A DNA stretch of 48,430 bases from a virus. Made by a program: the position numbers and the translations under genes. Under the pieces are notes generated by a model. The model ran no database searches and was not told the origin of the DNA. It saw only the letters and a program-made list of their open reading frames with translations. The first letter of the stretch is position 1. Each line of letters opens with the position of its first letter. The stretch covers positions 1 through 48,430 of IMG/VR virus record IMGVR_UViG_3300045051_000319; one strand, given 5' to 3'. This document shows, piece after piece, positions 33-42,109 of the stretch.

Positions 33-47
33 GGGGGGGTTGCGTGA
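1..47 (+). CDS. HNH endonuclease, C-terminal end (continues from 47605-48430)
   Basis: If the window is closed into a circle, the open frame that runs off the right edge continues here in frame through 15 sense codons and stops with TGA at 45-47. That stop overlaps the GTG start of the small terminase at 44 as GTGA, the junction type used all through this genome. This stretch is A-rich compared with its surroundings and holds two overlapping dyads that may be part of the packaging site. See the main entry at 47605. Confidence 0.7.
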   Translation, partial: FGESSSKQTNGGVA

Positions 48-538
48 GCCGGATTGGCCGCCCCCGCAAGCCGGACGCCGCGAAGCGTCTGGAGGGCACG
101 TTTCGGCCCGACCGGGAGCGTTCCGGGGTGGTTGATGCGCCCCCGGCGATGCCGGAGCGTCCCGAGTACCTGACGGCGGGTGCGCGCAAGGAGTGGGACC
201 GTGTCGCGCACTTCCTCGTGGAATACGGGCTGATCGCCGCGGGTGACGGGGCGGTGCTTGAGGGCTACTGCTGCTCGTACGGGCGGGCGGTCGAGGCCGA
301 GAAGGCGCTCAAGAAGCACGGGTTGATCATCAAGACGCCGTACGGCCCCCAGGTCAACCCCGCGGCGGCCATCGCGCGACAGAACTGGGAGGCGGTGCGG
401 AAGTTCGCATCGGAGTTCGGGCTCTCGATCGGCGGTCGGCAGGGCATCAAGGTCCCCGAGAGGCCGAAGGAGGACGCGACCGAGGGGTTCCTGTTCGGCG
501 CCGGCCTGAAGGCGATCGAGGGGGGCAAGGTTGGCTAG
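44..538 (+). CDS. terS: Terminase small subunit, P27 family
   Basis: This 164-residue protein should recognise the packaging site and recruit the large subunit. The N-terminal GRPRKP-DAAKRLEG stretch, the central L..GARKEWDR segment and the closing FGLSIGGR segment match the layout of the P27 small-terminase family. The start is GTG at 44, fixed by the GTGA overlap with the HNH gene that closes the circle. It ends 8 bases inside the large-terminase gene, so the two are probably translationally coupled. Confidence 0.93.
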   Translation: MSRIGRPRKPDAAKRLEGTFRPDRERSGVVDAPPAMPERPEYLTAGARKEWDRVAHFLVEYGLIAAGDGAVLEGYCCSYGRAVEAEKALKKHGLIIKTPYGPQVNPAAAIARQNWEAVRKFASEFGLSIGGRQGIKVPERPKEDATEGFLFGAGLKAIEGGKVG

Positions 539-2168
539 CCTTCCTCCCGTCCGCCCGATCGGCAAATGGGAGCGGCTCGCCGCGGAGCGGAACGAGCGCG
601 AGCTCGCGCTTGCGCGCAAGGGGCACCCGCGGGGCTTCTACTTCGATCCCGTCGCGGCGGAGCGCCCGATCCATTTCATCGAGCGGTACTGCAAACACCA
701 CAAGGGCGAATGGGCCGGTCAACCGCTTCTCCTCGAGGGGTGGCAGAAGGAGCAACTTCGTCAGGCGTTCGGGTGGAAGCGGGCCGACCACTTCCGGCGC
801 TACCGTTCGATCTGGGACGAGGAACCGCGCAAGAACGGGAAGACCGAAAAGGCGGCAGGCGTCGGCTGCTACCTGCTCGTCGGCGACAACGAACCGGGCG
901 CGGAGATCTACGCGACGGCGACGAAGCGGGAGCAGGCACTCATTCTGCACTCGGCAGCGTCGGCCATGGTGCGGGCGTCGCCGGAACTCCGCCGGTTCGT
1001 GAAGGTGTCGCGGCACAACCTCTCGTGTGACCGGTTGGGGTCGAAGTTCGAGCCGCTCTCCGCGGACTACAACACGCTCGACGGGCTATCGCCCTCCGGC
1101 GATCTCCGGGACGAGGTCCACGCATGGAAGGATCACGCCTTGTCGGCGGTGCTCGACACGGCCATGGGCGCGCGGCGCCAGCCGATGACGTTCGAGATCA
1201 CCACGGCCGGGACCTATGATCCCGAGTCGGTCGGCTGGCAGCACCACAACGTCGCAACGAAGGTGCTGGACGGGACCGTCGAGGACGATTCCGCGCTGGC
1301 GATGATCTACGCCGCGGACGAGGGCGACGACCCGTTCGATCCGGCGACATGGTGGAAGGCGAATCCGAACCTTGGCGTATCGCTGAAACTCGACTACCTC
1401 GCCAAGCAGGCCGCGAAGGCGAAGCGGGAGCCGTCGTTCCTCAACGACTTCCTGCGCCTGCACCTCAACGTGTGGCCGAGTCAGGTCACGCGACGGATCC
1501 CGATCGAGCGGTGGAACGCCTGCGACGCGACCCGGATCAACGAGGACGATCTCGCCGGTCGCGACTGCTTCGCTGGGATGGACCTCGCGACGAAACTCGA
1601 CCTTACGGCGCTCGTGCTCCTGTTTCCGCACGAGGACGGGTCCTGCTCGCTCCTGTGCCGATTCTGGCTCCCGGAGTCCACGGTCGGTGACTACGGCAAG
1701 AAGGGCCAGCGGTATTGGCAGCAGTGGGCCGATGAGGGCTGGCTCAAGACGACACCCGGAGACGTCGTGGACTACGACTTCATCCGGGCCGAGGTAAACG
1801 AACTCGGCAAGAAATTCCGCATCCAGGAGATCGCGTTTGACCCGTGGGGCGCGACACAGATCGCGACGCAACTCGGCGGCGACGGCTTCACGATGGTCGA
1901 ATGCCGGCAGGGCTACAAGACGCTGTCTGAGCCGTTCAAGGAGTTCGAGGCGCGGATCTTCTCCAAGCGCCTGCGTCACGGCGGAAACCCGATCCTTCGC
2001 TACTGCGTCTCGAACGTCGCGGTTGACACCGACGCCGCGGGCAACCTGAAACCCGCCAAGGACAAATCGATGGGCCGGATCGACGGCGTGGTGGCGGCGA
2101 CCATGGCGCTGTCGCGCTGCATCGTAAGCGTCGCACCCTCGCAGCCAAAGGTCTGGTTCATCGACTAG
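531..2168 (+). CDS. terL: Terminase large subunit, terminase_1 family (ATPase and nuclease)
   Basis: This 545-residue packaging motor pumps DNA into the prohead and cuts it. The Walker A-type motif PRKNGKT lies at residues 99-105, the Walker B acidic pair is D194-E195 in DLRDEVHAW, and the RNase H-like nuclease domain begins near D351 in the segment FAGMDLATKLDLTAL. Length is normal for the family. The TTG start at 531 overlaps the terS stop by 8 bases. No later start fits the conserved N-terminal region (FYFDP, IHFIE) better. The portal gene follows after two bases. Confidence 0.96.
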   Translation: MASLPPVRPIGKWERLAAERNERELALARKGHPRGFYFDPVAAERPIHFIERYCKHHKGEWAGQPLLLEGWQKEQLRQAFGWKRADHFRRYRSIWDEEPRKNGKTEKAAGVGCYLLVGDNEPGAEIYATATKREQALILHSAASAMVRASPELRRFVKVSRHNLSCDRLGSKFEPLSADYNTLDGLSPSGDLRDEVHAWKDHALSAVLDTAMGARRQPMTFEITTAGTYDPESVGWQHHNVATKVLDGTVEDDSALAMIYAADEGDDPFDPATWWKANPNLGVSLKLDYLAKQAAKAKREPSFLNDFLRLHLNVWPSQVTRRIPIERWNACDATRINEDDLAGRDCFAGMDLATKLDLTALVLLFPHEDGSCSLLCRFWLPESTVGDYGKKGQRYWQQWADEGWLKTTPGDVVDYDFIRAEVNELGKKFRIQEIAFDPWGATQIATQLGGDGFTMVECRQGYKTLSEPFKEFEARIFSKRLRHGGNPILRYCVSNVAVDTDAAGNLKPAKDKSMGRIDGVVAATMALSRCIVSVAPSQPKVWFID

Positions 2169-2170
2169 CC

Positions 2171-3721
2171 ATGGCCCAACCGCGCAAGAGGCTGTCCCGA
2201 AGAGTCACGGCCGCGGCCCCGCGGCGCCGTCCGGTGAAGCCGCCCCAGGCCCCGACGTATGGGATGTGGCTGCAACGCTACGTCGATCCCGATCTGCGGC
2301 TGACGCAAGAGGAGCGGTTGTCAGAGTCCGCGGTGTACGCCTGCATCCGGCAGATCGTCGACCCGCTCGCGGCGGCGAACTGGGACGTTGCCGTGCGCGA
2401 GAAGGATCAGCGCACGAGCCTAGGGGATGGAGACCTCTGGTACAAGCTGAACGTCCGGCCGAACGACGATCAGCCGGCGAGCGCGATCAAGGAGGCGCTG
2501 GTCACCTCCGCGATCATGTCGGGGTCCGGGTACTGGGGGATCAACCGAGACGGGGCGGGGAAGCTCTCCGAACTGTGGCCGCTCGAGTACGACCGAGTCA
2601 CGCTCCTGCGCCCCGACGGCGGGGACCTCTTCTACCAGTACCGCCAGCCGGGCGGGGATGAGACGTACCTGCGCGGATCGGACGTCGTCCACGTGCGCGC
2701 CCCGACGATCTCCGGGCTGAACGGGGACAGCCTCGTCGACCGCGCGTCGCCGTCGATCTCGCTCGCGGTGGCGCAGGCGCGCTTCGCGTCGAGCTTCTTC
2801 CAAAACGCGGGCGTGATCTCGGGCTACCTGAAGTTCAAGACCGCGATCACGGATCCGAAGGTTCGGGAGCGTCTCAAAGAGGAATGGTCCTCGAAGCACG
2901 GGGGACGGAAGGCCCACGGAACGGGCGTGCTGGAAGGGGACGGGGAGTACGTCTCGACCTCGACCGACGCCGAGAAAAGCCAACTCCGCGAGTCCAGGGA
3001 GATGAGCGTACAGGACATCTCCCGCGTGTTCGGAGTTCCGCTCGTCCTGCTCTCGCTCGCGATCAGCGCGCAGGGGTACGGGACGAACACGACGCAGTTT
3101 TTCGAGATGTTTGTCCGTACGTGCCTGAGTTCCTGGCGGCGGCGGATTCAGGAAGAGGTGACGTACAAACTCTGCCCGCAACGCTCGCCATGGCCGGAGG
3201 TCTCGATCGACCTCAACTGGCTGACGCGCGGCAACGAGAAGGAGCGCGCCGAGACCCGGGCGATCCTGATCGACTCCGCGCAACTCACGCCGAACGAGGC
3301 TCGGGCCGACGAGGGGCGGGACTCGAAGCCGAACGGCGACGTCCTCATGCTGAAGGGCAAGCCGCTCGAGCAGGTCATCAACCCGCCCACTCCGGCCCCC
3401 GCCGCGGTCGTTCCCGCGAAGCCCGAGCCGCCCGATCCGGCCGACGAGGAAGAGGTGGACGGCGAGACCGTGGCGCTACTGCGGGCCGGCGTTGCGCTGG
3501 CGCTCGAGAACCACCGCCGCCGCTGGGTGGCGCGGGTCCGGGACGTGGGCGAGGAGAAGACGGCCGAAGCGCGCGAGGAGTTGCGCGCGAAGTTGTCCGC
3601 CGATCTCGCGGCGTTTTCGGAGCACATCACTGGCGGCCAGTTCGCCGCGCTGGCGGCACAGGCAGAGGCCGGCGCCGATCCCTCCAAGACGGTCGAGCAA
3701 CTGATCGGAGTCGCGGCATGA
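2171..3721 (+). CDS. Portal protein, HK97 family
   Basis: This 516-residue protein forms the dodecameric ring at the capsid vertex through which DNA passes. It has the family features SESAVYACIRQIVDP near the N terminus, the central YQYRQPGG-D-V-H-VRAP segment, and the SVQDISRVFGVPLVLL segment that precedes the crown. The C-terminal 120 residues (Pro/Ala-rich linker, then an Arg/Glu-rich helix) extend beyond the minimal domain. Its stop overlaps the protease start as ATGA, which couples the two genes. Position between terL and protease agrees with the assignment. Confidence 0.94.
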   Translation: MAQPRKRLSRRVTAAAPRRRPVKPPQAPTYGMWLQRYVDPDLRLTQEERLSESAVYACIRQIVDPLAAANWDVAVREKDQRTSLGDGDLWYKLNVRPNDDQPASAIKEALVTSAIMSGSGYWGINRDGAGKLSELWPLEYDRVTLLRPDGGDLFYQYRQPGGDETYLRGSDVVHVRAPTISGLNGDSLVDRASPSISLAVAQARFASSFFQNAGVISGYLKFKTAITDPKVRERLKEEWSSKHGGRKAHGTGVLEGDGEYVSTSTDAEKSQLRESREMSVQDISRVFGVPLVLLSLAISAQGYGTNTTQFFEMFVRTCLSSWRRRIQEEVTYKLCPQRSPWPEVSIDLNWLTRGNEKERAETRAILIDSAQLTPNEARADEGRDSKPNGDVLMLKGKPLEQVINPPTPAPAAVVPAKPEPPDPADEEEVDGETVALLRAGVALALENHRRRWVARVRDVGEEKTAEAREELRAKLSADLAAFSEHITGGQFAALAAQAEAGADPSKTVEQLIGVAA

Positions 3722-18135: not shown

Positions 18136-19383
18136 GTGGCGAACGTCGTCATCCTGTCGCCGCTCTACACGTACGCCACGCAGGCGGGATCGGCGGAGCC
18201 GGTCCCGTTCGTTTGTTCCGGCGTGACGGACGTTCCGGGGCAGATCGTCGTCCTCTCGGAAGACACGACCGGGGCGGAACTGGGGCGGACGTCGGCCAGC
18301 AACACGGCGCTTCCCTCCGGGGCCTATGCCGGTTGGTATCCGTGGGCGACGACGATCTCGACGTGGTCACCGACGAACAGCCTGGGGGCTCCGGCGGCTG
18401 GCCTGACCGCGTCGGCGGGCGGGGTCGGATGCTCGGCGGTGGTCGGGTTGGCGGCGGGTTCTGGGGCGATGGCGACGGGGCCGGTGAGCTACTTCGCTGG
18501 GCTTGGCATGGGCGCGGCGGCGTTGACGGCGGGTGCGGGGGGCGTCGGCTGCGCGGGGCTCGTTGGGATGGCTGCCGGGGCGGGAACGGCTGGGGCGGGC
18601 GGGATCTCGATCTCGGCGGCGGCGGACGCGACCGCTCCGGTGGTGACTGCGTTCACGGTGGGAACGCCGAGCGGATCGTCGGTTCCGATCACGGCCTTCA
18701 CCGCGACGGACGCGGTCGGTGTCACAGGCTATCTCGTCACCGAGTCGAGCACGCCTCCCGCAGCGGGCGCGGCGGGCTGGACTGGCTCGGCGCCGAGCAC
18801 GTACACCGCAGTCGGCACGGGGAGCGTGACGCTGTACCCGTGGGCGAAGGACGCGGCCGGGAATGTGTCGAGCGTGTTTGGATCGCCCCGGACGGTGACG
18901 ATCACGGGCGGCGCATCCCTCACCTCCGACTTCGAGGCCGACGCGAACGGATGGACATTCTCCAACGGCGCCGCGCGATCCAACACGTCGCCCATCGCCG
19001 GCTCTTACTCGGTGCGCAAGACCGGATCGGGCGCATTCGACGCGGAGGTCGCTGCCAAGACGGTGAGCGGAAACCGGCAGAACATCACCTCGATCACGAT
19101 CAAGTACCGTCTGTCGCAGGGTCAGCCAACGACCGGGCACCAACTGTCCATTTATTGCGGTCCCGCTCAGCCGTTGTTCGACGGCTTGAACCACATCAAG
19201 ACGCTGGTGGCTGACGACGTGGTGCATGAGTTGACGTTCAGTGGTGCTGTCAACCCGGGCGTCACCGGCAGTGGAGCTGTCCGTCTCCAGGCAAAAGTCC
19301 AGGACTACGATGACGGGGAACCCTGGTACACCCCGTTCACCCTCACGATTGACGACGTCGTGATCAACGGGATCTCCTCGTGA
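18136..19383 (+). CDS. Adhesin-like late protein with Gly/Ala repeats, Ig-like and carbohydrate-binding-like domains
   Basis: The 415-residue protein starts at GTG 18136. Residues 1-85 are beta-rich. Residues 90-165 hold a degenerate repeat of the type TAGAGGVGCAGLVGMAAGAG. Residues 170-255 form an Ig-like domain (DATAPVVTAFTVGTPSG to WAKDAAGNVS). From 265 onward the segment FEADANGWTFSNGAARS starts a jelly-roll-like domain resembling carbohydrate-binding modules. The same repeat type occurs in the adjacent subtilase, with which it overlaps by GTGA. It may be a tail-side fibre that binds glycans. Confidence 0.6.
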   Translation: MANVVILSPLYTYATQAGSAEPVPFVCSGVTDVPGQIVVLSEDTTGAELGRTSASNTALPSGAYAGWYPWATTISTWSPTNSLGAPAAGLTASAGGVGCSAVVGLAAGSGAMATGPVSYFAGLGMGAAALTAGAGGVGCAGLVGMAAGAGTAGAGGISISAAADATAPVVTAFTVGTPSGSSVPITAFTATDAVGVTGYLVTESSTPPAAGAAGWTGSAPSTYTAVGTGSVTLYPWAKDAAGNVSSVFGSPRTVTITGGASLTSDFEADANGWTFSNGAARSNTSPIAGSYSVRKTGSGAFDAEVAAKTVSGNRQNITSITIKYRLSQGQPTTGHQLSIYCGPAQPLFDGLNHIKTLVADDVVHELTFSGAVNPGVTGSGAVRLQAKVQDYDDGEPWYTPFTLTIDDVVINGISS

Positions 19384-22217
19384 GTCCCGACCGCCGCCAC
19401 GTCCAGATCCTCGCGGTCAGGTTTCGGAAGTGGGACGATGCGGCCGTCCGCCGCGTCGTGCAGGAGTGTGGCGGCGTCGTGGAGAAGCTCACGCCCGAGT
19501 TACGTATGGCGCGTGTTTCTCCCGCGCCCGACGCGGACATCGAGGGGGTGCGGCAGCGACTAGCTGCGCGTTCCGAGGTAGAGGCTGCGACCTACGCGCT
19601 CCGCATGAACACGCGGGGCGCGTATCACGCGGCGACGAACGACACGCACCTCGATCTGCACTACCACCTGAAGCGCACCAACGTCTTCCACGCCTGGAAG
19701 TACACGCGGGGCGATCCGTCGGTGAGGGTTGCCGTCGTTGATACAGGGCTCGTCCATTCCGCGGTGGTCGCGCCTACCGGGAACGGGGACTGTCCGCTGC
19801 CGGACTCGTCCTATCGCTCCGAGGACAATGCGGCGGTCCCCTGGGACTACGGGGAAGGCGACTGCGAGTCAACGAACGTCGACTACAGCCACGGGACGAC
19901 GTGCTGGGCCATCATCAAAGCGCTGGCGAACAACGGCAGCGGCATCGCCGGCATCGCACCGGACTGCTACGGGATCATGGTTGCCGCCGCAGCGTCCACC
20001 TACCCCGACGTCATCAGCATCTACGCCGCCGAAGGAATCATCGAAGCGACCAATCGTGGAGCGCGCATCATCAGTTGTAGTTGGGGGCAGGTGGTCCCCG
20101 TCGATGCGAACGAGCAACCCACGAATCAGAACGGGTGGGACCTAATCAATGCCGTCCAGTACGCGCTCGATCACGGCGTGCTGGTGATCAACGCGGCCGG
20201 GAACCTCAACGAATACTACCCATCCGCGAACAGCTACGGTCCCGCTACCTCGTTCATGTGGCCCGCCGAGGTGGACGGCGTGCTGCTCGTGTCGAGCGCG
20301 GGCGGGCCTCCTCCACACCCGGAGGACACGCCGTACAATGGCGCCGGAGCGACGGATGGTCCGGCCTACGGGGCGGGGATAGAGGTCGTCACTCCAGCCC
20401 AGGACGTGTTCACCGCGCTCGGCCCCGGCTACGTCGCGCCGAGCTACGCGAACATTGGCCCGGACTACGGATACGGTGCGTGGTGGGACGGCCTGGTTGT
20501 GGCGAACGGGCAGCCCTATGGCGGCGGCCCGCTGCTCACGCATCACCACAGCACTTCATTTTCCGCGCCGCAGGTCGCGGGGGCGGCGGCGCTCATCCTG
20601 TCGATCAACCCGGCCCTCACCGCGGAGCAGGTCAAGGCCATCCTGAAGTCGTCGGGCGGGCCAGTGAGCCACGCTGGCGTCGCCGTCCGGTATCCGAGCT
20701 TCCCCGGCATCCTCGACACCGGGAAGGCGGTGACGAAGGCGCTCGCGACACTTCCGGCGAACGCCGGGCGGGTGTTCCCGTACGCGCGCTTCATCGGCAC
20801 CGGAGTCGTGGTCAGCGTGTCGGGCGGCGTGGCGACAACGACGCTTCCACTCAACCAGCCGATCACGCTCGACGCGGCGGGGTTCAGTTCGGACCCGATC
20901 ACGGGCGTCGAGGTGTGGGTCGGTTCGCGGCGCGTCTACTCGGGGACCGGCGGCACCGCGACGGTCACGATCACGCAGGGTGGTCCGGTTCGTGTCGTCG
21001 CGCGGACGGCCACCACCGAAACGTCTGAGACTTACTCCGACGTGGGAACCGCTCCGACTTACGCGCTCACGATCCAGGCGGGAACCGTCAGCGGCGCCGC
21101 AGTGACGGCGTGGGGGACCCGGGCCGCAGACTCGACCATCGCCGTCACCGCCCCTGGCGCGTCGGTGGGCGTGGTCGGTTACCCCGACTCTACCTCTTGG
21201 CAGGCGACCGTCTCGGACCTCCCTTCCGGAGCGACGACGATCACCGCAAGCGACGGGACCGACTCCGCAAGCGTGACGGTACAGGCGGGCGCGCGTCCGC
21301 ACACGATCCGCGCCACGGCCGGGGCTGATTCTGCCTCGTTCCCTTACTCGCTCCCGCTTGAACTCGGCGAGACCGGATCGACGGTCACTCTCGTTCCGGG
21401 GTGCGACACGCCCCCCGCGGTGCTGACGTCAGGGGCAGGGGCCGTTGCGCTGCGCGGCGCGCTGCCTGTGGCGGCGGGGAACCTGACGGCGGGGGCGGGC
21501 GCCGTGTCGCTGGCGGGTCTGCGGGGACTGCCGGCTGCGGCCGGGACGCTCGCCACCCCGGGAGCAAAGGCGCTCGGCGCGCTCGGCGCGGTTTCGGCCA
21601 ACGGGACGACCTCCGCTCAGCCGGTGTCATTCACTGCGACGCCGTCCGGTCATCGCCTGCGCGCCACCGCGGACGGTGCGCCGGCCTACGTCTGGATCGT
21701 ACCCGGCGCGGACGCGGGATCGGGTTTGGCATCCTCCGGAGCGGGCGCCGTCGCGATCGGCGCGCAGGTTCCGGCGCCTCGGGCCTCTGGCGCGTTCGCG
21801 GCGGCAAGCGTGGCCGTCCTCTCCGGGGCCGGGGTCGCGGTTCCGGCGGCGGGGATGACCTCCGGGGCGGGGGCCATCTCGATCGCCGCGGTCGTTCGCG
21901 CCCCGTCCGCTGCGGGCGTACTCGTGTCCGCGCCCGTCTCGGTTGCGATCTACGCCGCGCCGCTCGGCGTGCCGGCGGCAGGGGCGACCTCGGGCGCAGA
22001 GTCGATCGGGATCTCCGCCGTGGTCCCGGTCCCGATCGCCTCCGGCCTCTTCTCCGCGACTCCGATCGGATACCACGGCGGCGCGTTCTACGACGAGGAC
22101 CAGGCGATCGACGCGGTCCTCGTCCGGTTCGTCATCAACGCGAAACCGACCCACATCCACGCCGACGCGCGGAAGCTGTCGATCGCAACAACCGCGCGAA
22201 GGTACGTCGGGAGGTAG
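19380..22217 (+). CDS. Subtilisin-family serine protease (S8) with C-terminal repeat region
   Basis: The 945-residue protein has a complete catalytic domain: Asp121 in VAVVDTGLVH, His171 in DYSHGTTCWA, oxyanion Asn275 in INAAGN and Ser393 in STSFSAPQVAG. Residues 1-75 resemble an I9-type propeptide. There is no signal peptide, which fits a virion-bound enzyme rather than a secreted one. Residues 470-640 are beta domains, and 650-900 carry about eight degenerate 20-25 residue SGAGAV-type repeats. The GTG start overlaps the upstream stop. Substrate is unknown; host surface protein or capsule-associated protein is a guess. Confidence 0.87.
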   Translation: MSPDRRHVQILAVRFRKWDDAAVRRVVQECGGVVEKLTPELRMARVSPAPDADIEGVRQRLAARSEVEAATYALRMNTRGAYHAATNDTHLDLHYHLKRTNVFHAWKYTRGDPSVRVAVVDTGLVHSAVVAPTGNGDCPLPDSSYRSEDNAAVPWDYGEGDCESTNVDYSHGTTCWAIIKALANNGSGIAGIAPDCYGIMVAAAASTYPDVISIYAAEGIIEATNRGARIISCSWGQVVPVDANEQPTNQNGWDLINAVQYALDHGVLVINAAGNLNEYYPSANSYGPATSFMWPAEVDGVLLVSSAGGPPPHPEDTPYNGAGATDGPAYGAGIEVVTPAQDVFTALGPGYVAPSYANIGPDYGYGAWWDGLVVANGQPYGGGPLLTHHHSTSFSAPQVAGAAALILSINPALTAEQVKAILKSSGGPVSHAGVAVRYPSFPGILDTGKAVTKALATLPANAGRVFPYARFIGTGVVVSVSGGVATTTLPLNQPITLDAAGFSSDPITGVEVWVGSRRVYSGTGGTATVTITQGGPVRVVARTATTETSETYSDVGTAPTYALTIQAGTVSGAAVTAWGTRAADSTIAVTAPGASVGVVGYPDSTSWQATVSDLPSGATTITASDGTDSASVTVQAGARPHTIRATAGADSASFPYSLPLELGETGSTVTLVPGCDTPPAVLTSGAGAVALRGALPVAAGNLTAGAGAVSLAGLRGLPAAAGTLATPGAKALGALGAVSANGTTSAQPVSFTATPSGHRLRATADGAPAYVWIVPGADAGSGLASSGAGAVAIGAQVPAPRASGAFAAASVAVLSGAGVAVPAAGMTSGAGAISIAAVVRAPSAAGVLVSAPVSVAIYAAPLGVPAAGATSGAESIGISAVVPVPIASGLFSATPIGYHGGAFYDEDQAIDAVLVRFVINAKPTHIHADARKLSIATTARRYVGR
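21420..22050 (+). repeat. Degenerate SGAGAV-type amino-acid repeats in the subtilase C-terminal region
   Basis: About eight units with the loose pattern T-S/A-GAGAV/I-x-I/L-A-x-x-V-x-x-P-x-A-A-G follow one another (for example TSGAGAISIAAVVRAPSAAG). Related units occur in the upstream gene at about 18400-18620. The Gly/Ala-rich, evenly spaced pattern suggests a repetitive beta structure or linker stalk. Confidence 0.65.
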
Positions 22218-27416: not shown

Positions 27417-28457
27417 CTAGAGGGGGGCTCCGACGCTCCGGCGGCGCTCGGTGGCGCGGAGCGCGTGGAGATACTTCTCCGTCGTCTTGATGCTGGCGTG
27501 GCCCATCCGCTCTTGGAGCCCGCGGAGATCGCCCGTGTTCCGCAGGTAGACGGTGGCGTAGGTGTGCCGGAGTTCGTGCGCGGAGTAGGGCTCGACGCCC
27601 GCCGCCTTGCAGGCGCACCGGAGGCGGTGGTCGAACTGGCCCGCCTCGTCATCGGGGACGCCGCCAAGGTCGAGGAGCTTCCGCGCCGCCCCCACGGTTC
27701 GCATCGACACGGGAATGGTCCTGGCGCGTCGCCGCTTCGTCCTGGGGACGTGAATGCCGCCCGGTCGAAGGTCCGAGGGGGCCATGCGCGCGAGCTCGCC
27801 ATAACGCAGCCCAGAGCCTAGGACGACCTCCGCGGCAAGCCGCCACTTCGGGAGCAGTTCCGCGTTGACCGCGCGCCACACCTTCTCCGGGATCTCGTGC
27901 GGCGCGTTCGCCCCCTCATCTTCGCGTAGGAGGGCGACCTTGGTGTCCGCGTCGTTCGTCGTGATGCCCTCGGATCGAGCCCAGGTCATCAGGGCTTTGA
28001 GGGCGGCCAGGTCGCGATTGACGGCGGGGCGGCCCACCTTCCGGCCCGCAACGCCCCCGTCCGCGCGCCACGCCATGTAGGCGCGCACGTCGGAGTCGGT
28101 GAAGGTGTCGAGGTTGGGGAAGAGGCGACTTGTACCGAGGTTATCGAAGTACCCGCCTTGCTTCTCGACGTGGCCGGGGCTGTTCTGCGCGGTCAGCGCG
28201 GAGAAGCGGAGGTAGCCTTCGACCGCCGACCCCCAACGAGACGACGCGCCAGCAGTCGGAAGGACGGAACGGGGGTTGCGCTCCCAGCGGCGATAGACCT
28301 CGGCCGCGGCGATCGGATCGACACAACCCGTGCTCCGGCGGAACCGGGCGCGGCCGGGGAGGGTGCGGTCGATGTAGTGGTAGCCGCCATCGGTGTAGCC
28401 GACGACGACGCCGTTGAGCTTCCAGGGCTTGCGGGAAGACCGCGCCTTGCGAGGCAC
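27417..28457 (-). CDS. int: Tyrosine-family site-specific integrase
   Basis: The 346-residue recombinase has the full active site: Arg218 in GSGLRYGELARM, Lys241 in the beta-hairpin, His294-x-x-Arg297 in SAHELRH, His320 in RMGHASIKTTEKY and Tyr329. Residues 75-180 are the core-binding domain and the basic N terminus probably binds arm sites. I chose GTG 28457 because GAGGAG lies eight bases upstream; longer starts run into the xis-like gene. It is the last gene of the leftward operon and lies next to attP. Confidence 0.93.
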   Translation of the reverse strand: MPRKARSSRKPWKLNGVVVGYTDGGYHYIDRTLPGRARFRRSTGCVDPIAAAEVYRRWERNPRSVLPTAGASSRWGSAVEGYLRFSALTAQNSPGHVEKQGGYFDNLGTSRLFPNLDTFTDSDVRAYMAWRADGGVAGRKVGRPAVNRDLAALKALMTWARSEGITTNDADTKVALLREDEGANAPHEIPEKVWRAVNAELLPKWRLAAEVVLGSGLRYGELARMAPSDLRPGGIHVPRTKRRRARTIPVSMRTVGAARKLLDLGGVPDDEAGQFDHRLRCACKAAGVEPYSAHELRHTYATVYLRNTGDLRGLQERMGHASIKTTEKYLHALRATERRRSVGAPL

Positions 28458-28648
28458 CGCTCGTACTCCTCGACTGCCGAGAGGGCGACGCGACGATCCG
28501 CCCCCACCGTGATGCCGGAGTAGACACCGAGGCGCGTCATTTCGTCCAGCGCCCGGTAGACGCTCGACTTGGAGCAGTCCCACCGCCCCATGAGGGAGCG
28601 GGCCGAAAGGAATCGGGCCAGGGCCGGGATGGCGACCGACCCCGACAC
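28193..28648 (-). CDS. Excisionase-like helix-turn-helix protein overlapping int
   Basis: From GTG 28648 the frame encodes about 70 residues with a winged-helix/MerR-like pattern: FLSARSLMGRWDCSKSSVYRA (turn and recognition helix), a beta wing and SAVEEYERCLARR. This is the layout of phage excisionases. The start shares one base with the upstream stop (TAGTG). The frame then continues, low in complexity, to 28193, overlapping int by 265 bases, so the C-terminal 80 residues may be tolerated read-through sequence. The int ribosome site lies inside its Glu-Glu codons. Confidence 0.62.
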   Translation of the reverse strand: MSGSVAIPALARFLSARSLMGRWDCSKSSVYRALDEMTRLGVYSGITVGADRRVALSAVEEYERCLARRGLPASPGSSTASSSATPMAATTTSTAPSPAAPGSAGARVVSIRSPRPRSIAAGSATPVPSFRLLARRLVGGRRSKATSASPR

Positions 28649-32672: not shown

Positions 32673-33425
32673 CTAGTGGTTGATCTGCCATTCGGGCTCA
32701 GAGGTGCCGACGATGGCGCCACCCTTGACACCCTCCAGGCCCTCAAGGAATCCGTCGCAGCGGGTCCAGTCGTCGGCGGTGAGCGAGGTCGAGTCGTCAA
32801 CCGGGCGGCCGATCCACTCCGCGATCTTGATCTTGCGGGCGGACGGGGTCTTGAACCCCAGCGCGATGAGGCGGCTCTGGAGGTTCGCGGTGCGGGTGCC
32901 GTGGTCCTTCGGCGCGTTGACCTTAGCCCCGCCGTTCACCTTCGCGGCGACCTTGGCCTTGACCGCATCGACGCGAGTGGTCTTCGGGGCCTCGTCGCCG
33001 TCCTCCTTCTCCGGGTCGCTGGCGCCCTGCGGCGAGGGGTCGTCGCCGGTCGGGATCAGGAGGAGCTTCATTACGGCGTACTTCTCGGCTCCGGTCATCG
33101 CCTTATAGGCGGCCTTGTCGCCCCGGTCCTGGCCCTCTCCGATGGCGCGGAAGGAAAACTCCGACTCTCCATCGGTCACGGTGAACCGGACGGTGAGCGT
33201 CACCAGCCGGTCCTGGCCTTGCTTGGTCGCGATGCTCGCAACCGTCATGGCCTCCACGTCGGGGATGATCACGATCCCCTGCTCCGCGAGCGGCCCGCGA
33301 ATGTGAGCCAGGAGCCCGGATTCGGTGGCGTAGTTGTAGTTGTGGAAGGCGTTATGCCCGTCCTTCGGCACCCAGCCTGTGGCCTTGATAACGGCGGCCA
33401 CCTTCGCGGCGAGCTTTCCGATCAT
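32673..33425 (-). CDS. erf: ERF-family single-strand DNA annealing protein
   Basis: The 250-residue recombinase anneals complementary strands after exonuclease resection. Its core matches ERF: HNYNYATESGLL near the start, then FSFRAIGEGQDRGDKAAYKAMTGAEKYAVMKLLLIPTGDDP at residues 90-130, where GDKA, TGAEKYA and the terminal DDP are the family hallmarks. An acidic/Lys-rich linker leads to a C-terminal helical domain. The ATG overlaps the exonuclease stop. Confidence 0.92.
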   Translation of the reverse strand: MIGKLAAKVAAVIKATGWVPKDGHNAFHNYNYATESGLLAHIRGPLAEQGIVIIPDVEAMTVASIATKQGQDRLVTLTVRFTVTDGESEFSFRAIGEGQDRGDKAAYKAMTGAEKYAVMKLLLIPTGDDPSPQGASDPEKEDGDEAPKTTRVDAVKAKVAAKVNGGAKVNAPKDHGTRTANLQSRLIALGFKTPSARKIKIAEWIGRPVDDSTSLTADDWTRCDGFLEGLEGVKGGAIVGTSEPEWQINH

Positions 33426-34363
33426 GGCGTCTCCTTCCAGTTCACCCTGAGACTGCGCGGGCCGGGTTTGGTGGTGCTGTGCTTGGCGAGGAGGTCGGCC
33501 GGGATGGCGGCGACCATCTCCATCAGTAGCGCCTGCCAGTCGGTCGTCGTGCGGTCCTTGCTCGCCTTGTAGGAGACCGAGAACCGATCACCCTTGATCC
33601 CGGCGGCGTCCCCGATGGCCTGGCGGAGCAGGTTGCCGGCGAGGCTCTTGGCCTCCTCGGCCGCGTCGAACGCGGCGGACGCTGCCCGGTACGCGGTGAC
33701 GAGGTGGGTCAGGTTCTCGTCGGCGGAGAGAATCGGAGCGGTGTCGCGTGGGAACGTCTTGCGGAGGTACTCGGCTGCCGCGTCGGACCCATCGATCGGA
33801 GGCGGCCGTCCCGTGTCGATGTGGTCGCGGAGGAAGCGGTCCGCGATCTCGCGCAGGCCCGCCCATGTCTCGTCATCCCACGGCACGTCGAATGGGCGGA
33901 GGTCGTTGCCACCCAGGAGGACACAGACCGTTCCTTCGTGGATGCCGGTTACGCCCATGTGCCAGAGCGTCTGGACCGTCTCCTCCTCGGTGGCCTCGTT
34001 CGCGTCGTAGCGGCGGATCTGGTCTAGGGCGCGGTTCTTGGCCTCGACGACGCGCTCCGGGGCGAGTCGGGCGTCGGTGACGATCGCGTCCGGCGTGGTC
34101 GCGTATCGACCGTCCACTACGGTTCCGGGAGCGTAGGTGACGCGCGCCCAGCCCTTGTCCTCGGCAGCGGCCTCGATGATGGCGCGCTCGAGCTTCCGGC
34201 CGAAGCGCATCCGGTTGTTGTCCGGGATCGGGTTCGCGATCCCCTTCATGTCGTTCCACACCGCGAGGGCCTTGCCCTGGTACAGTTTCACGATGCGGCT
34301 AGAGGTGATGCGGCCCTGGCGGAGTTCCTGGTCCTGCGGTGTGAGCGTTGTCGCGGTCTGCAT
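33422..34363 (-). CDS. YqaJ/lambda-exo-like recombination exonuclease
   Basis: The 313-residue PD-(D/E)XK nuclease has Glu64 in GRKLERAIIEAA, Asp92 in TTPDAIV and the E107-A-K109 motif in ERVVEAKN, the layout of YqaJ-type viral exonucleases. Helical C-terminal residues 200-280 are also typical. It resects DNA ends for the ERF annealing protein, its downstream partner. GAGGAG five bases before ATG 34363 is formed by the last codons of the upstream gene. Confidence 0.88.
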   Translation of the reverse strand: MQTATTLTPQDQELRQGRITSSRIVKLYQGKALAVWNDMKGIANPIPDNNRMRFGRKLERAIIEAAAEDKGWARVTYAPGTVVDGRYATTPDAIVTDARLAPERVVEAKNRALDQIRRYDANEATEEETVQTLWHMGVTGIHEGTVCVLLGGNDLRPFDVPWDDETWAGLREIADRFLRDHIDTGRPPPIDGSDAAAEYLRKTFPRDTAPILSADENLTHLVTAYRAASAAFDAAEEAKSLAGNLLRQAIGDAAGIKGDRFSVSYKASKDRTTTDWQALLMEMVAAIPADLLAKHSTTKPGPRSLRVNWKETP

Positions 34364-34365
34364 GG

Positions 34366-34539
34366 CTACTCCTCGTCGTCCTCGGGTTCGTCGCACTCGC
34401 GGTCAGGCTCTTCGCGCTCGATCGGCTCGTCGAAGTGGTGGATCATTCGGTCGCCGCACTTCGGGCAGGAACTCGGGCCGCCCAGGTTGTTGAAGATCGT
34501 CGTGTCGCAACTGACGCACTGATGCTCCATGCAAGCCAT
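34366..34539 (-). CDS. 57-residue zinc-ribbon protein
   Basis: The product has a CVSC ... CPKCGDRM rubredoxin-like pair (residues 8-29) and a very acidic tail ending DDEE. Its Glu-Glu stop region provides the ribosome site for the exonuclease. It starts at ATG 34539 after an AGGAGAGG sequence. Function unknown. Confidence 0.7.
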   Translation of the reverse strand: MACMEHQCVSCDTTIFNNLGGPSSCPKCGDRMIHHFDEPIEREEPDRECDEPEDDEE

Positions 34540-34949: not shown

Positions 34950-35170
34950 GCCGCCCTCCGCGTCGAGCGCCAGTAGTCGGCACGCTTGCGGCAGTCCTGC
35001 GCCGCGCCCTCGTACCACTCCGCGTCCGCGATCTGCTGCGCGCGGTCACAGTGCGGGTCCACCTGCGCGCGGACCCGGCGTGCCCGAGCAATCGCCTCGT
35101 AGTGCGCTGCGGTCGCCTCGGCCTCTTCCGCCCACGCCTCGCAGAGTCGGGCGTCATCCTCGCGCGTCAC
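34946..35170 (-). CDS. Small helical protein
   Basis: The 74-residue protein is charged and helical (ARLCEAWAEEAEATAAHYEAIARARR) with three Cys. Start is GTG 35170, overlapping the upstream stop as GTGA. Unrecognised. Confidence 0.6.
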   Translation of the reverse strand: MTREDDARLCEAWAEEAEATAAHYEAIARARRVRAQVDPHCDRAQQIADAEWYEGAAQDCRKRADYWRSTRRAA

Positions 35171-35457
35171 GGCTGCACCGCCTCGACCGCGCAAGCGGCA
35201 CAGACGTACTCGCCCTCCGCGTCGCGGGCCGCGCTGTCCAGCTTCTCGGGATCGACGAAGTTCCCGCAGAACATGCACGGCTCCATCTCCATCGCCTCGA
35301 TCTCCGCGAACTCAAGCAGCGAGGACGGACAGTGGTTGGCGAACTCCCGCATCCCCGCCTCGATGCTGGCCGCGATCACGGGCTCCGGTACGCGCAGGAG
35401 GTCCGTCTCCAGCGCCACCCTCCGAGCGAGCCGCCTGCACAGCTCGTGGAACGTCAC
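35167..35457 (-). CDS. Small protein with C-terminal zinc knuckles
   Basis: The 96-residue product has an N-terminal helical half and a C-terminal CMFCGNFVDPEKL ... CAAC ribbon. Start GTG 35457 overlaps the stop of the first operon gene. Unrecognised family. Confidence 0.62.
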   Translation of the reverse strand: MTFHELCRRLARRVALETDLLRVPEPVIAASIEAGMREFANHCPSSLLEFAEIEAMEMEPCMFCGNFVDPEKLDSAARDAEGEYVCAACAVEAVQP

Positions 35458-35639
35458 GGCGACACCTGCGCCACGAGCCCGTACTCGGAGCGTGCCCACT
35501 GGGCGCACTCGGAGGCGCTCTCGCCTTCGTGCGTGTCGATGATGCGGCGGCCTTCGTAGACGGCGACCACGAACAGCGGGCCTTCCACGCTGTCGTGCTT
35601 CTGCGCCGTCGCGTCGTGAATGTGTGCCGTGCGGTCCAT
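35454..35639 (-). CDS. First gene of the leftward early operon, hypothetical
   Basis: The 61-residue product (start ATG 35639, GGGGGA site upstream) is beta-rich with a helix (ASECAQWARSEYG). It is the first gene after PL, the position of lambda N. It lacks the Arg-rich N terminus expected of an N-type antiterminator. Function unknown. Confidence 0.62.
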   Translation of the reverse strand: MDRTAHIHDATAQKHDSVEGPLFVVAVYEGRRIIDTHEGESASECAQWARSEYGLVAQVSP

Positions 35640-35711
35640 CGCGTCCCCCTTCGTGTCGCCGCGCCTGACGTCTGGGGCTGTGCCCGGCGGCGCTGTTCGT
35701 TACGGGAGGGG

Positions 35712-35739
35712 AGTTTACGCGCGTAAACTAAGAAGTCAA
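35712..35739 (-). promoter_or_regulatory. PL: leftward early promoter
   Basis: On the minus strand a TTGACT -35 box (35739-35734) and a TAAACT -10 box (35717-35712) are separated by 16 bases. The -10 box overlaps operator OL1. Boxes, spacing and the ten bases before the -10 are identical to those of PR at 36463-36490. It should drive the operon from 35639 to int. Confidence 0.85.
35713..35728. promoter_or_regulatory. Operator OL1, perfect 16-bp palindrome
   Basis: GTTTACGCGCGTAAAC, fully symmetric, overlaps the PL -10 box. The same 16 bases occur at 36474-36489 over PR. Confidence 0.9.
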
Positions 35740-35742
35740 GCG

Positions 35743-35758
35743 GTTCACGCGAGGAAAC
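35743..35758. promoter_or_regulatory. Operator OL2, imperfect copy
   Basis: GTTCACGCGAGGAAAC matches the perfect operator at 13 of 16 positions. It lies exactly 30 bp from OL1, upstream of the PL -35 box, a spacing of about three helix turns that suits cooperative binding. Confidence 0.75.
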
Positions 35759-35780
35759 GACTGCGGGCTTTTCGGGGGGG

Positions 35781-36005
35781 CTACTTCGGTTCGAGCTTCA
35801 ACTGGCGCAGCAGGCCAGCGACGCGACCCGCCATCAGCTCGGCGTGGTCGCTGGCGCGCTCCAGGGCATCAGCGTCTTCGATGGCGGACGCGCAGAGCCA
35901 GCGTCCCACGGCCGCGCGCATGGAAAGCCGGGCGGCCTCCAGTTCGGCCTCTATCGCTTCCCTTCGTCCGGCTGGGGTGTTCGCGGGTCCGATCGCCGTG
36001 CTCAT
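35781..36005 (-). CDS. Hypothetical helical protein downstream of the repressor
   Basis: The 74-residue product (MSTAIGPANTPAGRREAIEAELE onward) is helical throughout. It lies between the repressor and PL, on the repressor strand, so it may be expressed in the lysogen. About 140 bases separate it from the repressor; no clear promoter is visible there. It may be a repressor modulator, but no family is recognised. Confidence 0.55.
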   Translation of the reverse strand: MSTAIGPANTPAGRREAIEAELEAARLSMRAAVGRWLCASAIEDADALERASDHAELMAGRVAGLLRQLKLEPK

Positions 36006-36144
36006 CCGAGCAGTATCCCGCACCGTGCTGACACGCATCGTTTGGCCCCCCAGCCTTAGATGGTTGAGGGCGCACCGTACCCAGACGGGGAGCGATCAGG
36101 CAATACCCCACGATCGCGGTACACGGCGGTCGCTATGAAACCGG
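36006..36144. other. Non-coding gap between repressor and downstream gene
   Basis: I see no convincing gene here. Partial promoter-like matches on the minus strand (TTGCCT with a weak -10) are too poor to call. It could hold the 3' end of the repressor mRNA. Confidence 0.3.
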
Positions 36145-36420
36145 CTACTTGCCCCGGCGCGTCATGTTGGGCGGGTCGGTCTTGAGGATCTGGGTGACGC
36201 TGAAGCCGGTGATTTCGCTCATGGCGATGAGCATTCGCAGATGGGGCACGCGGCGGGATTCTCGCGAGATGATCTGGGATAGGCCGCCCTTCGTATATCC
36301 GACAGCCTTGGCGAGAGCCTCGTCGGTAGGAAAATCGGCCGAATAGTTGTCGCGGATCCAGCGCACCCAGCGGACGACGTTGTCGCGGGCGTCCTGCACC
36401 TGTTTTTCGTAGGGCGACAC
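36145..36420 (-). CDS. Prophage repressor, small XRE-like HTH protein
   Basis: The 91-residue protein has a helical N terminus (DARDNVVRWVRWIRDNY) and an XRE-type helix-turn-helix at residues 32-59 (TDEALAKAVGYTKGGLSQIIS), ending TGFSVTQILK. It is encoded against cro between the two operator pairs, the place of cI. It has no LexA/S24 cleavage domain, so RecA-driven autocleavage is not expected. I chose GTG 36420; the long upstream frame overlaps cro. No good ribosome site is present, so the mRNA may have a very short leader. Confidence 0.75.
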   Translation of the reverse strand: MSPYEKQVQDARDNVVRWVRWIRDNYSADFPTDEALAKAVGYTKGGLSQIISRESRRVPHLRMLIAMSEITGFSVTQILKTDPPNMTRRGK

Positions 36421-36443
36421 GGGGTCGGTGTACGCCGCGAGTG

Positions 36444-36459
36444 GTTTACTCGGGGGAAC
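36444..36459. promoter_or_regulatory. Operator OR2, imperfect copy
   Basis: GTTTACTCGGGGGAAC matches the perfect operator at 12 of 16 positions and lies exactly 30 bp from OR1. It lies upstream of the PR -35 box and 24 bp from the repressor start, so it may also control the repressor's own promoter. Confidence 0.7.
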
Positions 36460-36462
36460 CTG

Positions 36463-36490
36463 TTGACTTCTCCGTTTACGCGCGTAAACT
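36463..36490 (+). promoter_or_regulatory. PR: rightward early promoter
   Basis: TTGACT (36463-36468), 16 bases, then TAAACT (36485-36490). The predicted transcription start falls at or within a base or two of the cro-like ATG at 36498, so the mRNA may be leaderless. Confidence 0.85.
36474..36489. promoter_or_regulatory. Operator OR1, perfect 16-bp palindrome
   Basis: GTTTACGCGCGTAAAC overlaps the PR spacer and -10 box. Identical to OL1. Confidence 0.9.
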
Positions 36491-36497
36491 GCTCCCG

Positions 36498-36737
36498 ATG
36501 GCATCGGAGAACCCCCTGCTCGTGTTCTTGGCGGAGAAGAAGCTGACGCAGAAGAGATTTGCGCTCCGCTACCGCTTCCCCGAGCCGACCGTTTCGACTT
36601 GGGTGAGCGGCGATCGTCGCCCGAGCCTTTCATCGGCCCTCCGCCTCGAGACGAAGACGCGGGGGAAGATCCCGGTATCGAGTTGGCCGCATCTGCGCGG
36701 CGTCGTCGCCAGCCTGCGCGCTTCCCAGTCCGAGTGA
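36498..36737 (+). CDS. Cro-like HTH regulator
   Basis: The 79-residue protein has an HTH at residues 16-43 (LTQKRFALRYRFPEPTVSTW) followed by LETKTRGKIPVSSW, the end pattern of Cro/YdaS-type proteins. It is the first gene of PR and faces the repressor. ATG 36498 lies only seven bases after the -10 box. The expected role is to bind the same operators and favour lytic growth. Confidence 0.8.
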   Translation: MASENPLLVFLAEKKLTQKRFALRYRFPEPTVSTWVSGDRRPSLSSALRLETKTRGKIPVSSWPHLRGVVASLRASQSE

Positions 36738-36747
36738 GGTCCACACC

Positions 36748-37236
36748 ATGCCGGGCTCCAACCTGAGTGGAAGTCTACCCCCGAACGCGAGTGAAACGAC
36801 TCGTAATGGGGCACTGAACAGCGCTGAAACCCCATCACGGGCACTCATCGAGGACGGACAGATCGTCCTTGGAAACACTGATGATCGTTGCCGCGTTGGC
36901 GCGTCCCGGATGGCGGCGCTGGCGCACGAGTCGTCACGGGGCCGGTTCTCGTTCGCCACGGTCGGGCGCATCTCGGGTCGGGAGGCGGTCGCGGTCACGC
37001 GGGCGTTCGACGTCGAGGACCCCAGCTCGGCGCTGCGGTGTCTCGCGGCGCTCCTCTTGCTGGACTCCGATCGTGTGTGGTTGCGCGGCGTCTGTCGTCT
37101 CTTCGGTGGGGACTTCGTAGAACGGCCGAAGCTGACGAAGGAACAGAAGTACGACCTCCTGATCGAGACGCTCCACCGTCACGGCAAGCCCGGCGAGGCA
37201 TATATCACTGAGGCGTTCGGGGAGGCCGCTCCGTGA
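36748..37236 (+). CDS. Hypothetical early protein in the cII position
   Basis: The 162-residue protein has a Ser/Asn-rich first third, then helices (SALRCLAALLLLDSDRVWLRGVCRLFGG) and a basic helical end (LTKEQKYDLLIETLHRHG). No HTH is obvious. It follows cro directly and precedes an intrinsic terminator, as cII and tR1 do in lambda in varied order. Its function is unknown. Confidence 0.6.
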   Translation: MPGSNLSGSLPPNASETTRNGALNSAETPSRALIEDGQIVLGNTDDRCRVGASRMAALAHESSRGRFSFATVGRISGREAVAVTRAFDVEDPSSALRCLAALLLLDSDRVWLRGVCRLFGGDFVERPKLTKEQKYDLLIETLHRHGKPGEAYITEAFGEAAP

Positions 37237-37249
37237 CCTCCCTTTTTTT
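37220..37249 (+). terminator. Intrinsic terminator overlapping a gene junction (tR1-like)
   Basis: GGGAGG (37220-37225) pairs with CCTCCC (37237-37242) and is followed by seven T (37243-37249), rare in this G+C-rich sequence. The 11-base loop holds the GTGA where one gene stops and the next starts. Ribosomes crossing the junction would disrupt the hairpin, and antitermination may be needed to pass it. Confidence 0.75.
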
Positions 37250-37580
37250 AGCCGCCGCGAACGACCCGCAGACAGTCGCCCCCGGCGAGAGCGTAACTAC
37301 TCGCCCCTCGCTGCGCCTAGTCCCTGATTGCGTGCCTGACCGCGCGCCCAGTGACCCCGGCGAGACGCTGGCGGACCTTCCTGCTCCGGTCCTCGTGAGC
37401 ACGCAACTCGCCGCGGAACGTCTCGCCGTCAAGTACCGGCTCTGGGGCAACGACCGGCTCTGCGAAGCGGCGATGACGATCGCGAAGCGGTGCGCGCACC
37501 TCCTCCGATGCCGGGAGAGACGCGAACGGATGCACGAGGTCATCGCGGCGGCGATCGACGGGCCGGGGGGTGCAGCGTGA
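37233..37580 (+). CDS. Hypothetical early protein
   Basis: The 115-residue product starts at GTG 37233 in a GTGA overlap. The N-terminal half is Pro-rich and probably disordered; the C-terminal half is helical and basic with two Cys (RLCEAAMTIAKRCAHLLRCRERRERM). It starts inside the terminator hairpin. Unrecognised. Confidence 0.58.
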   Translation: MTSLFLAAANDPQTVAPGESVTTRPSLRLVPDCVPDRAPSDPGETLADLPAPVLVSTQLAAERLAVKYRLWGNDRLCEAAMTIAKRCAHLLRCRERRERMHEVIAAAIDGPGGAA

Positions 37581-40643: not shown

Positions 40644-41393
40644 ATGGCCGAGGGGGAACGCGGGCCGGTGCTCATTGGCGAGGTTGAAGTCCACCCCGCC
40701 GCGCAACTGTTCCCGGAGATGGGCGAGGAGGATTTCGCTAGGCTCAAAAAGAGCATCTCGGAACACGGCATCCGCGTTCCCCTCGTGTTTCACGAGGGCC
40801 GCCTCGTCGATGGTCGTAACAGGCTCCGAGCGTATCTCGCCCTCGGGCTTCCGTTGGCGAGGCTACCCAAGGAGCAACTCCTCCCGACCCGCGACCCATT
40901 CCTCTATGCGTGGGATCGGAACTGCGAGCGGCTCGACTACACGCCCGGACTGAAGGCCGATATCCACGCGAAGGTGATGGTCGAGTCCGGGCAGTTGGAT
41001 CGGCTTCGCCGCGGGGCGGAGGAGCGCGCCAACGCGGCTAGGGCGGAGGCGGCGAAGAGCAACGGCAACGCCGCGAAAAGGCGGACGGAAAACAGTCGGG
41101 CGCCAGATGACGCCCCACCGATTTCTCGCGACAACAAAGAGAAGGAAGCGCGCAAGACCGCCGCGGTGCTGGCGCAGGCGGCTGGCGTCTCGACTCGGAC
41201 CATGGAGCGCACCCTCGCCAAGCAGAAGAATGGCGGGGCCGGGATACTGCCCGCCGACCACCCACTCCAAACCAAGCGGCCCCCCGCGAAAAACTGGTCC
41301 GTGCCGCGCGACATCACGCTCCTGTCCGTCTTCCTCCGGGAGCGGCTCACCTCGCACGAACGGCTGCGCCTCGCTCGACTTCTCGCGGAGTGA
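40644..41393 (+). CDS. ParB N-terminal-domain protein
   Basis: The 249-residue protein has a ParB_N core (residues 8-70: VEVHPAAQLFPEMGEEDFARLKKSI and VDGRNRLRAYLALGLP with D56-G-R-N-R60), then a charged helical region and an HTH-like segment (AAVLAQAAGVSTRTMERTLAK). It starts four bases after the DGEHR protein. Pairs of such genes before a DUF1376 protein suggest replication-linked regulation; not proven. Confidence 0.75.
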   Translation: MAEGERGPVLIGEVEVHPAAQLFPEMGEEDFARLKKSISEHGIRVPLVFHEGRLVDGRNRLRAYLALGLPLARLPKEQLLPTRDPFLYAWDRNCERLDYTPGLKADIHAKVMVESGQLDRLRRGAEERANAARAEAAKSNGNAAKRRTENSRAPDDAPPISRDNKEKEARKTAAVLAQAAGVSTRTMERTLAKQKNGGAGILPADHPLQTKRPPAKNWSVPRDITLLSVFLRERLTSHERLRLARLLAE

Positions 41394-42109
41394 TCGTGGA
41401 ACTTCCTTGGTTCAAGATTTACGCCGCCGAGTGCCTGTCCGACGAGTCGTTCCAGTCCTGGGACATCACAGAACGGGGCGCTTGGTTCACCCTCCTGCTC
41501 GTCAACTGGCGGGAGGGGTCGATCCCGAACGATCGCACCTCCCTAGCCAGGCTATTGCATGTCGATAGCTCAACCATGGCACAGCTATGGTCGGCCATTG
41601 GGTCGAAGTTCGTGGAGTCACCGGACGTCCAGGGGCGCCTCACCTCGCCGCGCCTCGAACTGGAGCGCGAGAAGGCGAAAATCCTTACCCGTAAGCGTTC
41701 CGAAGCGGGTCGAGAGGGCGCAAACCTGCGTTGGTCCAAGGAAAACAGGGTGAATGGCAAAACCATAGCTTTGTTATCGGTTGCCAATGCCAACCCAATG
41801 GCCGCCGATGGAGATCCAGATGTAGATGGAGATGCAGGTAAGACCAGCCAGCCAGAGGGCGTGTCCCCGCGCGTAGAGGCGTTCCGTCGTCGGTTGGCTG
41901 GCCGGCTGGAAATCGAAAACTTCGGGGTGGGAAGAAACGCCTCCGAGGTAGACGCCTTCTTCCGGAGCCAACTCGATGCCGTGGGGGAGGACTCGCTCCT
42001 CGTGGAGTGCTGCGACCTCGCCCCGAAGATGCGGACGTCCCCCGGCAACCTCTCGGCCTTCGTTGGGTGGCTGAAGAAATACCCCCTGCCGAAAGAGGTG
42101 CGGTCGTGA
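41390..42109 (+). CDS. DUF1376-type replication initiator-like protein
   Basis: The 239-residue protein begins WFKIYAAECLSDESFQSWDITERGAWFTLLLVNWREGSIPND, the DUF1376 signature found in phage replication regions (YdaU-like). A KRSEAGREGANLRWSKEN segment and an Asp-rich linker join it to a C-terminal helical domain. No separate helicase or polymerase gene is visible, so replication probably depends on host enzymes recruited by this protein. GTG start in a GTGA overlap. Confidence 0.8.
   Translation: MIVELPWFKIYAAECLSDESFQSWDITERGAWFTLLLVNWREGSIPNDRTSLARLLHVDSSTMAQLWSAIGSKFVESPDVQGRLTSPRLELEREKAKILTRKRSEAGREGANLRWSKENRVNGKTIALLSVANANPMAADGDPDVDGDAGKTSQPEGVSPRVEAFRRRLAGRLEIENFGVGRNASEVDAFFRSQLDAVGEDSLLVECCDLAPKMRTSPGNLSAFVGWLKKYPLPKEVRS
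41755..41842. other. Candidate replication origin inside the DUF1376 gene
   Basis: This linker-coding stretch is less G+C-rich than its surroundings. It holds the dyad GGTTG/CAACC (41779-41783, 41791-41795), two CCAATG motifs and two adjacent 18-base units beginning GATGGAGAT (41807 and 41825). Lambda places its origin in the same part of O. Only two units are present, so this is tentative. Confidence 0.3.

Follow-up and report, generated by a model that had tools for sequence, protein, structure and literature searches.

Genes and gene order of the locus

The window analysed here is the whole of a 48,430-nucleotide viral record (IMG/VR IMGVR_UViG_3300045051_000319). The genes that bear on its early-control region, with window positions and strands, are the following.

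27417-28583, minus: tyrosine integrase
32673-33425, minus: ERF single-strand annealing protein, leftward of promoter PL
33422-34396, minus: YqaJ/RecE-like exonuclease, leftward of PL
35454-35639, minus: 61-aa protein, first gene of the PL transcript
35781-36038, minus: 85-aa protein with coding-like base composition, between the repressor gene and PL
36145-36420, minus: 91-aa single-domain helix-turn-helix (HTH) protein, the presumed repressor, with a GTG start at 36420
36498-36737, plus: 79-aa Cro-like HTH protein, first gene of promoter PR
40644-42109, plus: ParB-like protein and a primosomal-protein-like gene, rightward of PR

Reading frames at the locus show a coding-type base composition across the three codon positions, and small genes lie between PL and the exonuclease. 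The layout follows the lambda-type plan. The repressor gene sits between two outward-facing promoters, PL on the repressor strand and PR divergent into the Cro-like gene; the same operator is found at both promoters, overlapping promoter elements; and genes for recombination and integration lie leftward, those for replication rightward. Judging from the tyrosine integrase, the phage is probably temperate. Among the late genes, a 945-aa protein (19380-22217) resembles, on visual inspection, a subtilisin-type serine protease whose C-terminal part is rich in repeats; it may be an unusual cargo or a virion-associated protease.

Both HTH proteins match known families weakly, below curated cut-offs, and the 79-aa protein has the better match (HTH_3, 1.4e-4; phrog_4779, 7.5e-5) compared with the 91-aa protein (HTH_3, E 0.001). 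The 79-aa protein has relatives, 35-45% identical, annotated as Cro-like in Microcystis and Paracoccus phages; its structure model is poor (pLDDT 56). The model of the 91-aa protein is a helical fold of moderate confidence (pLDDT 74), with weak structural matches to the DNA-binding domains of P22 C2, lambda CI, and 434 (Foldseek E > 0.1). At this length the protein amounts to one HTH domain and is too short to include a CI-type C-terminal domain for self-cleavage and oligomerisation. No homologue of it was detected in viral contigs, in phage records (including that of phage 16-3), or in 96 genomes of the family of a Myxococcaceae metagenome-assembled genome (MAG) described below. That the 91-aa gene encodes the repressor is reasonably supported. 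An earlier, sequence-only reading of the window had the promoter pairs flanking a repressor operon; the HTH gene between the promoters stands on reasonable ground, but the word "operon" goes further, as the 85-aa protein matches no family and the two genes may or may not be co-transcribed.

The ATG of the Cro-like gene lies just 7 bases past the -10 of PR, and no Shine-Dalgarno sequence is evident at this start (36490-36500) or at that of the repressor (36418-36432); cro may have a leaderless message. The repressor frame, it should be noted, stays open back through both right-hand operators, O2R and O1R, and has an ATG in phase at 36504.

Early promoters and their operators

The control elements are arranged as follows.

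35739-35712, minus: promoter PL, with -35 TTGACT (35739-35734), a 16-bp spacer, and -10 TAAACT (35717-35712)
36463-36490, plus: promoter PR, with -35 TTGACT (36463-36468), a 16-bp spacer, and -10 TAAACT (36485-36490)
35713-35728: operator O1L, perfect palindrome GTTTACGCGCGTAAAC, covering the PL spacer and -10
36474-36489: operator O1R, perfect palindrome GTTTACGCGCGTAAAC, covering the PR spacer and -10
35743-35758: operator O2L, GTTTCCTCGCGTGAAC in PL orientation, three mismatches to the 16-mer, 30 bp upstream of O1L
36444-36459: operator O2R, GTTTACTCGGGGGAAC, four mismatches to the 16-mer, 30 bp upstream of O1R, overlapping the presumed repressor promoter
36427-36448, minus: region of the presumed repressor promoter (PRM), with candidate -10 elements TAAACC (36448-36443) or TACACC (36432-36427), chosen by inspection

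The sequence-only reading had placed PL and PR at these positions with identical hexamers and 16-base spacers; all its coordinates check, and the arrangement as a whole lies far above chance. A promoter scan of 35000-37500 finds exactly these two sites and no other, where shuffled sequences lead one to expect 0.2, the consensus used being sigma-70-like and perhaps not that of the host. PL and PR are identical at 26 of 28 bases, and their -35 elements start 724 bp apart, in keeping with the 0.73 kb or so originally estimated to separate the pairs. The proposal that one perfect palindrome overlies each promoter is likewise borne out: there are exactly two perfect copies of the 16-mer, O1L and O1R, each centred 18.5 bp from the start of its promoter's -35.

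A search for further copies, as suggested in the earlier reading, yielded none beyond the four sites. At most three mismatches are found in three places (0.09 expected), and a match of at least 12 of 16 occurs at 5 of the 48,415 window positions, four of which are O1L, O1R, O2L, and O2R. A symmetric matrix built from the four sites scores them at 27.0, 27.0, 22.0, and 20.3, values that are inflated by training on the same sites, while the next-best window position reaches 11.3; in Markov sequences, the best score averages 13.2, with a maximum of 20.6 in 100 runs. The mismatch count is independent of the matrix. The matrix scan thus detects no fifth operator in the 48.4-kb window, and the record has no dispersed "stoperator" sites.

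All four sites in 48.4 kb are confined to the pair of early promoters that flank the phage's own HTH gene. This supports a genetic switch, and it also bears on the idea that the palindromes are sites for a host regulator, such as an SOS repressor, by which damage could be signalled to a prophage whose own repressor is non-cleavable. The 91-aa protein indeed leaves no room for a self-cleavage domain. However, besides the distribution of the sites, other phages have small single-domain repressors with matching palindromes of their own, and we consider a host regulator quite improbable as the reader of these sites.

The second operators deserve separate comment. Their starts are both exactly 30 bp from those of O1, on the upstream side of each promoter, where O2 abuts the -35; this position and spacing had been stated correctly. 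The same account called the second copies "degenerate", which understates the relation between them: in promoter orientation, O2L and O2R both carry T instead of G at position 7 and G instead of A at position 13, compared with O1. The pattern indicates that O2 is not simply a decayed O1. Such shared changes are expected of a second, weaker type of site that is conserved in its own right, or of a block that was copied whole.

They are also expected if two proteins read the sites differently, and might therefore be cited for a reversal or sharing of roles, with O1 bound chiefly by the 79-aa protein, and the 91-aa protein acting mainly on O2 or as a co-repressor. The better family match of the Cro-like protein points the same way, and a precedent is TP901-1, in which a MOR-type modulator needs CI as co-repressor (PMC8516035). 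Against this stands the gene order of lambda, P22, and the annotated Paracoccus phages, all of which encode the repressor between PL and PR and have Cro as the leading gene downstream of PR. In our opinion, swapped or shared roles are unlikely.

PRM was not detected by the promoter scan, and neither candidate -10 has a consensus -35. Whichever candidate is taken, the repressor promoter is overlapped by O2R and has O1R on its upstream side. O2R could therefore repress PRM and O1R could help it, in which case two sites would divide between them the work done by three operators in lambda; this division of labour is suggested by spacing only. A fuller version, in which each right-hand operator serves both divergent promoters, O1 repressing PR and activating PRM and O2 repressing PRM and helping PR, is conceivable, though we hold it rather doubtful. 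In that version, a single-domain repressor with two sites would accomplish what takes lambda three sites and a repressor that is both cooperative and cleavable.

An inverted repeat of the entire control block

The similarity of PL and PR is larger than the earlier reading reported, in that the entire control block is mirrored.

35712-35762, minus: left arm, comprising O2L, -35, O1L, and -10
36440-36490, plus: right arm, comprising O2R, -35, O1R, and -10

The 51-bp promoter/operator block forms an inverted repeat whose arms are identical at 43 of 51 positions (84%) and separated by 677 bp. The likeness of the arms ends sharply, the flanking sequence being unrelated. All eight mismatches fall outside the -35 hexamer, O1, and -10, and the stretch between the -35 and the operator is among the places affected.

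Two inverted 51-bp arms flanking 677 bp might be taken for recombination sites that invert the repressor segment. Yet each arm corresponds exactly to promoter and operator elements, and the two are unlike at those eight positions; no recombinase gene is adjacent, the integrase being 7 kb away; and inversion would leave two equivalent outward promoters. We find this explanation scarcely credible. Alternatively, the high identity over 51 bp with its sharp stop could be the trace of a recent duplication whose parts are not individually under functional selection. The complete avoidance of -35, O1, and -10 by the mismatches argues against this view, which we regard as very unlikely.

Comparison with known phages

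The phages compared were chosen because they encode proteins related to the Cro-like protein, or to the repressors adjoining such proteins, together with named yardsticks, so that the counts below are not an estimate of frequency. In a scan for outward-facing TTGAC pairs, shuffles of window length reach 17-22 of 37 and those of 6-kb length up to 21. The pair of the window is the most extreme (30/37). The top-ranked pair is also a mirrored pair around a short repressor in Paracoccus phages vB_PthS_Pthi1 (26/37) and vB_PkoS_Pkon1 (25/37), Microcystis phage Mae-JY02 (28/37), and Acetobacter phage phiAP1 (25/37), and lambda, too, ranks its mirrored PL/PR pair first (26/37). In Sulfitobacter phage pCB2047-C, a mirrored pair around the short repressor again ranks first, at 23/37, only just above the null, with a local comparison score of 14.5 against a shuffle maximum of 10.0. 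For P22, the right promoter pair was found at 20/37, not above the null and without mirrored identity, which Brevibacillus phage Jimmer2 lacks as well. The mirrored design is thus common but not universal. What the two sides share in each mirrored phage is the -35 together with a spacer palindrome, and most of the phages have a palindrome sequence of their own. All five of the other phages with mirrored pairs, lambda apart, have short repressors.

Pthi1, Pkon1, and Mae-JY02 resemble the window in having a short HTH repressor (103-135 aa), a divergent Cro-like protein, and mirrored TTGAC-palindrome promoters (24/26, 25/37, and 28/37, respectively). They differ from it in their own operator sequences, and a clear second operator is present only in Pkon1, at PL; the Pthi1 repressor has no detectable similarity to the 91-aa protein. 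The intergenic comparison gave nothing for Pkon1 because its left promoter is 2.8 kb away. This candidate PL, at which two TGTCGCA-type palindromes are spaced by 34 bp, lies 2.8 kb from PR (retrieved-region positions 130 and 2921) and is absent from the record annotation. The annotated start of the Mae-JY02 repressor (retrieved region 2586-2993) reads through its own PR promoter and operator, and the true start probably lies further downstream. In phiAP1, the mirrored promoters carry TTCGCA-N3-TGCGAA in the spacer, with a second site 34 bp upstream at PR; the operator is another one, and the promoters are only 420 bp apart. Taken with the placement of the mismatches in the window's arms, the occurrence of the same mirrored design in unrelated phages with their own operators points to selection, whatever the origin of the block.

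Lambda (J02459) shares with the window its gene order and outward mirrored PL/PR blocks, 26 of 33 positions being identical, well above shuffles. The distance from the centre of O1 to the -35 start is also similar (18 bp in lambda and Pkon1, 19 in phiAP1, 18.5 in the window). Lambda differs in its three operators at each promoter, in the 2.4 kb between its -35 starts, and in its 24-bp O1-O2 spacing. Its CI is a cleavable, cooperative repressor of 237 aa, compared with 91 aa in the window. The locus accordingly falls outside the lambdoid coliphages in the narrow sense, which have three operators per promoter, where the window has two, and a repressor with the CI-type C-terminal domain.

The closest parallel in operator number is Rhizobium phage 16-3 (NC_011103.1), in which OL1, OL2, OR1, and OR2 are annotated around the repressor gene; PL is on the repressor strand, PR is divergent, and the -35 elements are approximately 0.87 kb apart. 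The 16-3 c gene, in contrast, encodes approximately 263 aa, the operator spacing is shorter (17 and 26 bp), and the two sides are not near-identical blocks, their best match being 9/10 and not above shuffles. The operator sequence is not that of the window, and the 91-aa protein has no match there. Two-plus-two operators are therefore not new. The sequence-only reading had set the locus apart from the three-plus-three arrangement of lambda; this holds for operator number but not for distinctiveness, given the mirrored blocks of lambda itself and the operators of 16-3.

Relatives of the phage

The exact 16-mer occurs in four IMG/VR contigs, none with a comparable arrangement, and viral contigs contain no relatives of the 91-aa and 79-aa proteins or of the exonuclease. 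The large terminase subunit (TerL) has relatives in phages at 50-59% identity; in the regions retrieved from six of them, neither a homologous immunity region nor a mirrored TTGAC pair above background is present. Among cellular genomes, the closest TerL (50-52%) belongs to a prophage-like region of the Myxococcaceae MAG (contig C51:166715-168358), which has nothing corresponding to the immunity region and gives a weak hint as to the host group. A 5.6-kb contig, IMGVR_UViG_3300042876_000028, matches the window without difference across TerL and the first part of the portal gene (window 1-3165), and its end coincides with window base 1. The coinciding ends suggest a real genome end or a common assembly break.

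Proposed mechanism and significance

The promoters, the four sites, their spacing, the gene order, and the HTH domains can be read directly from the DNA, and the most probable account of them, which we hold with fair confidence, is an immunity and early-control region of a temperate tailed phage on the lambda-type plan, in which a dimer of the 91-aa protein on O1 represses PL and PR, O2 reinforces this and provides autoregulation, and the Cro-like protein competes for the same sites. A PL/PR switch with two operators per promoter, as first proposed, remains the best reading, with no further sites in the window; what does not survive is the implication that such a switch is distinctive.

From this arrangement we infer which protein binds which site, as well as cooperativity, autoregulation, and any DNA loop between the blocks. 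The 91-aa HTH dimer would bind the strong O1 at PL and PR and block RNA polymerase at both early promoters together. The near-identity of the PL and PR blocks implies that a given level of repressor should act on both early operons alike. O2 would be bound more weakly and strengthen repression, and the right-hand O2, overlapping the repressor's own promoter, would provide autoregulation. The product of the first PR gene, the 79-aa Cro-like protein, probably acts at these sites too, but with another preference between O1 and O2; it would turn the repressor off and, at a later stage, dampen early transcription from both promoters. The blocks, 0.7 kb from each other, could be joined by a loop, but the 91-aa protein shows no sign of an oligomerisation domain. 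A repressor with no self-cleavage domain implies that induction needs another input, possibly an antirepressor, a host protease, or a host regulator.

On this account, the locus would represent an unusually clean natural case of a minimal symmetric switch, with two identical strong and two matching weak operators, a 91-aa repressor, and a 79-aa Cro-like protein within approximately 1 kb. It would be a convenient system in which to ask whether a third operator, a cooperative C-terminal domain, and cleavage are needed for bistability. Finally, the comparison suggests that mirrored PL/PR blocks could serve as a simple sequence signature for immunity regions and their operators in uncharacterised phages.
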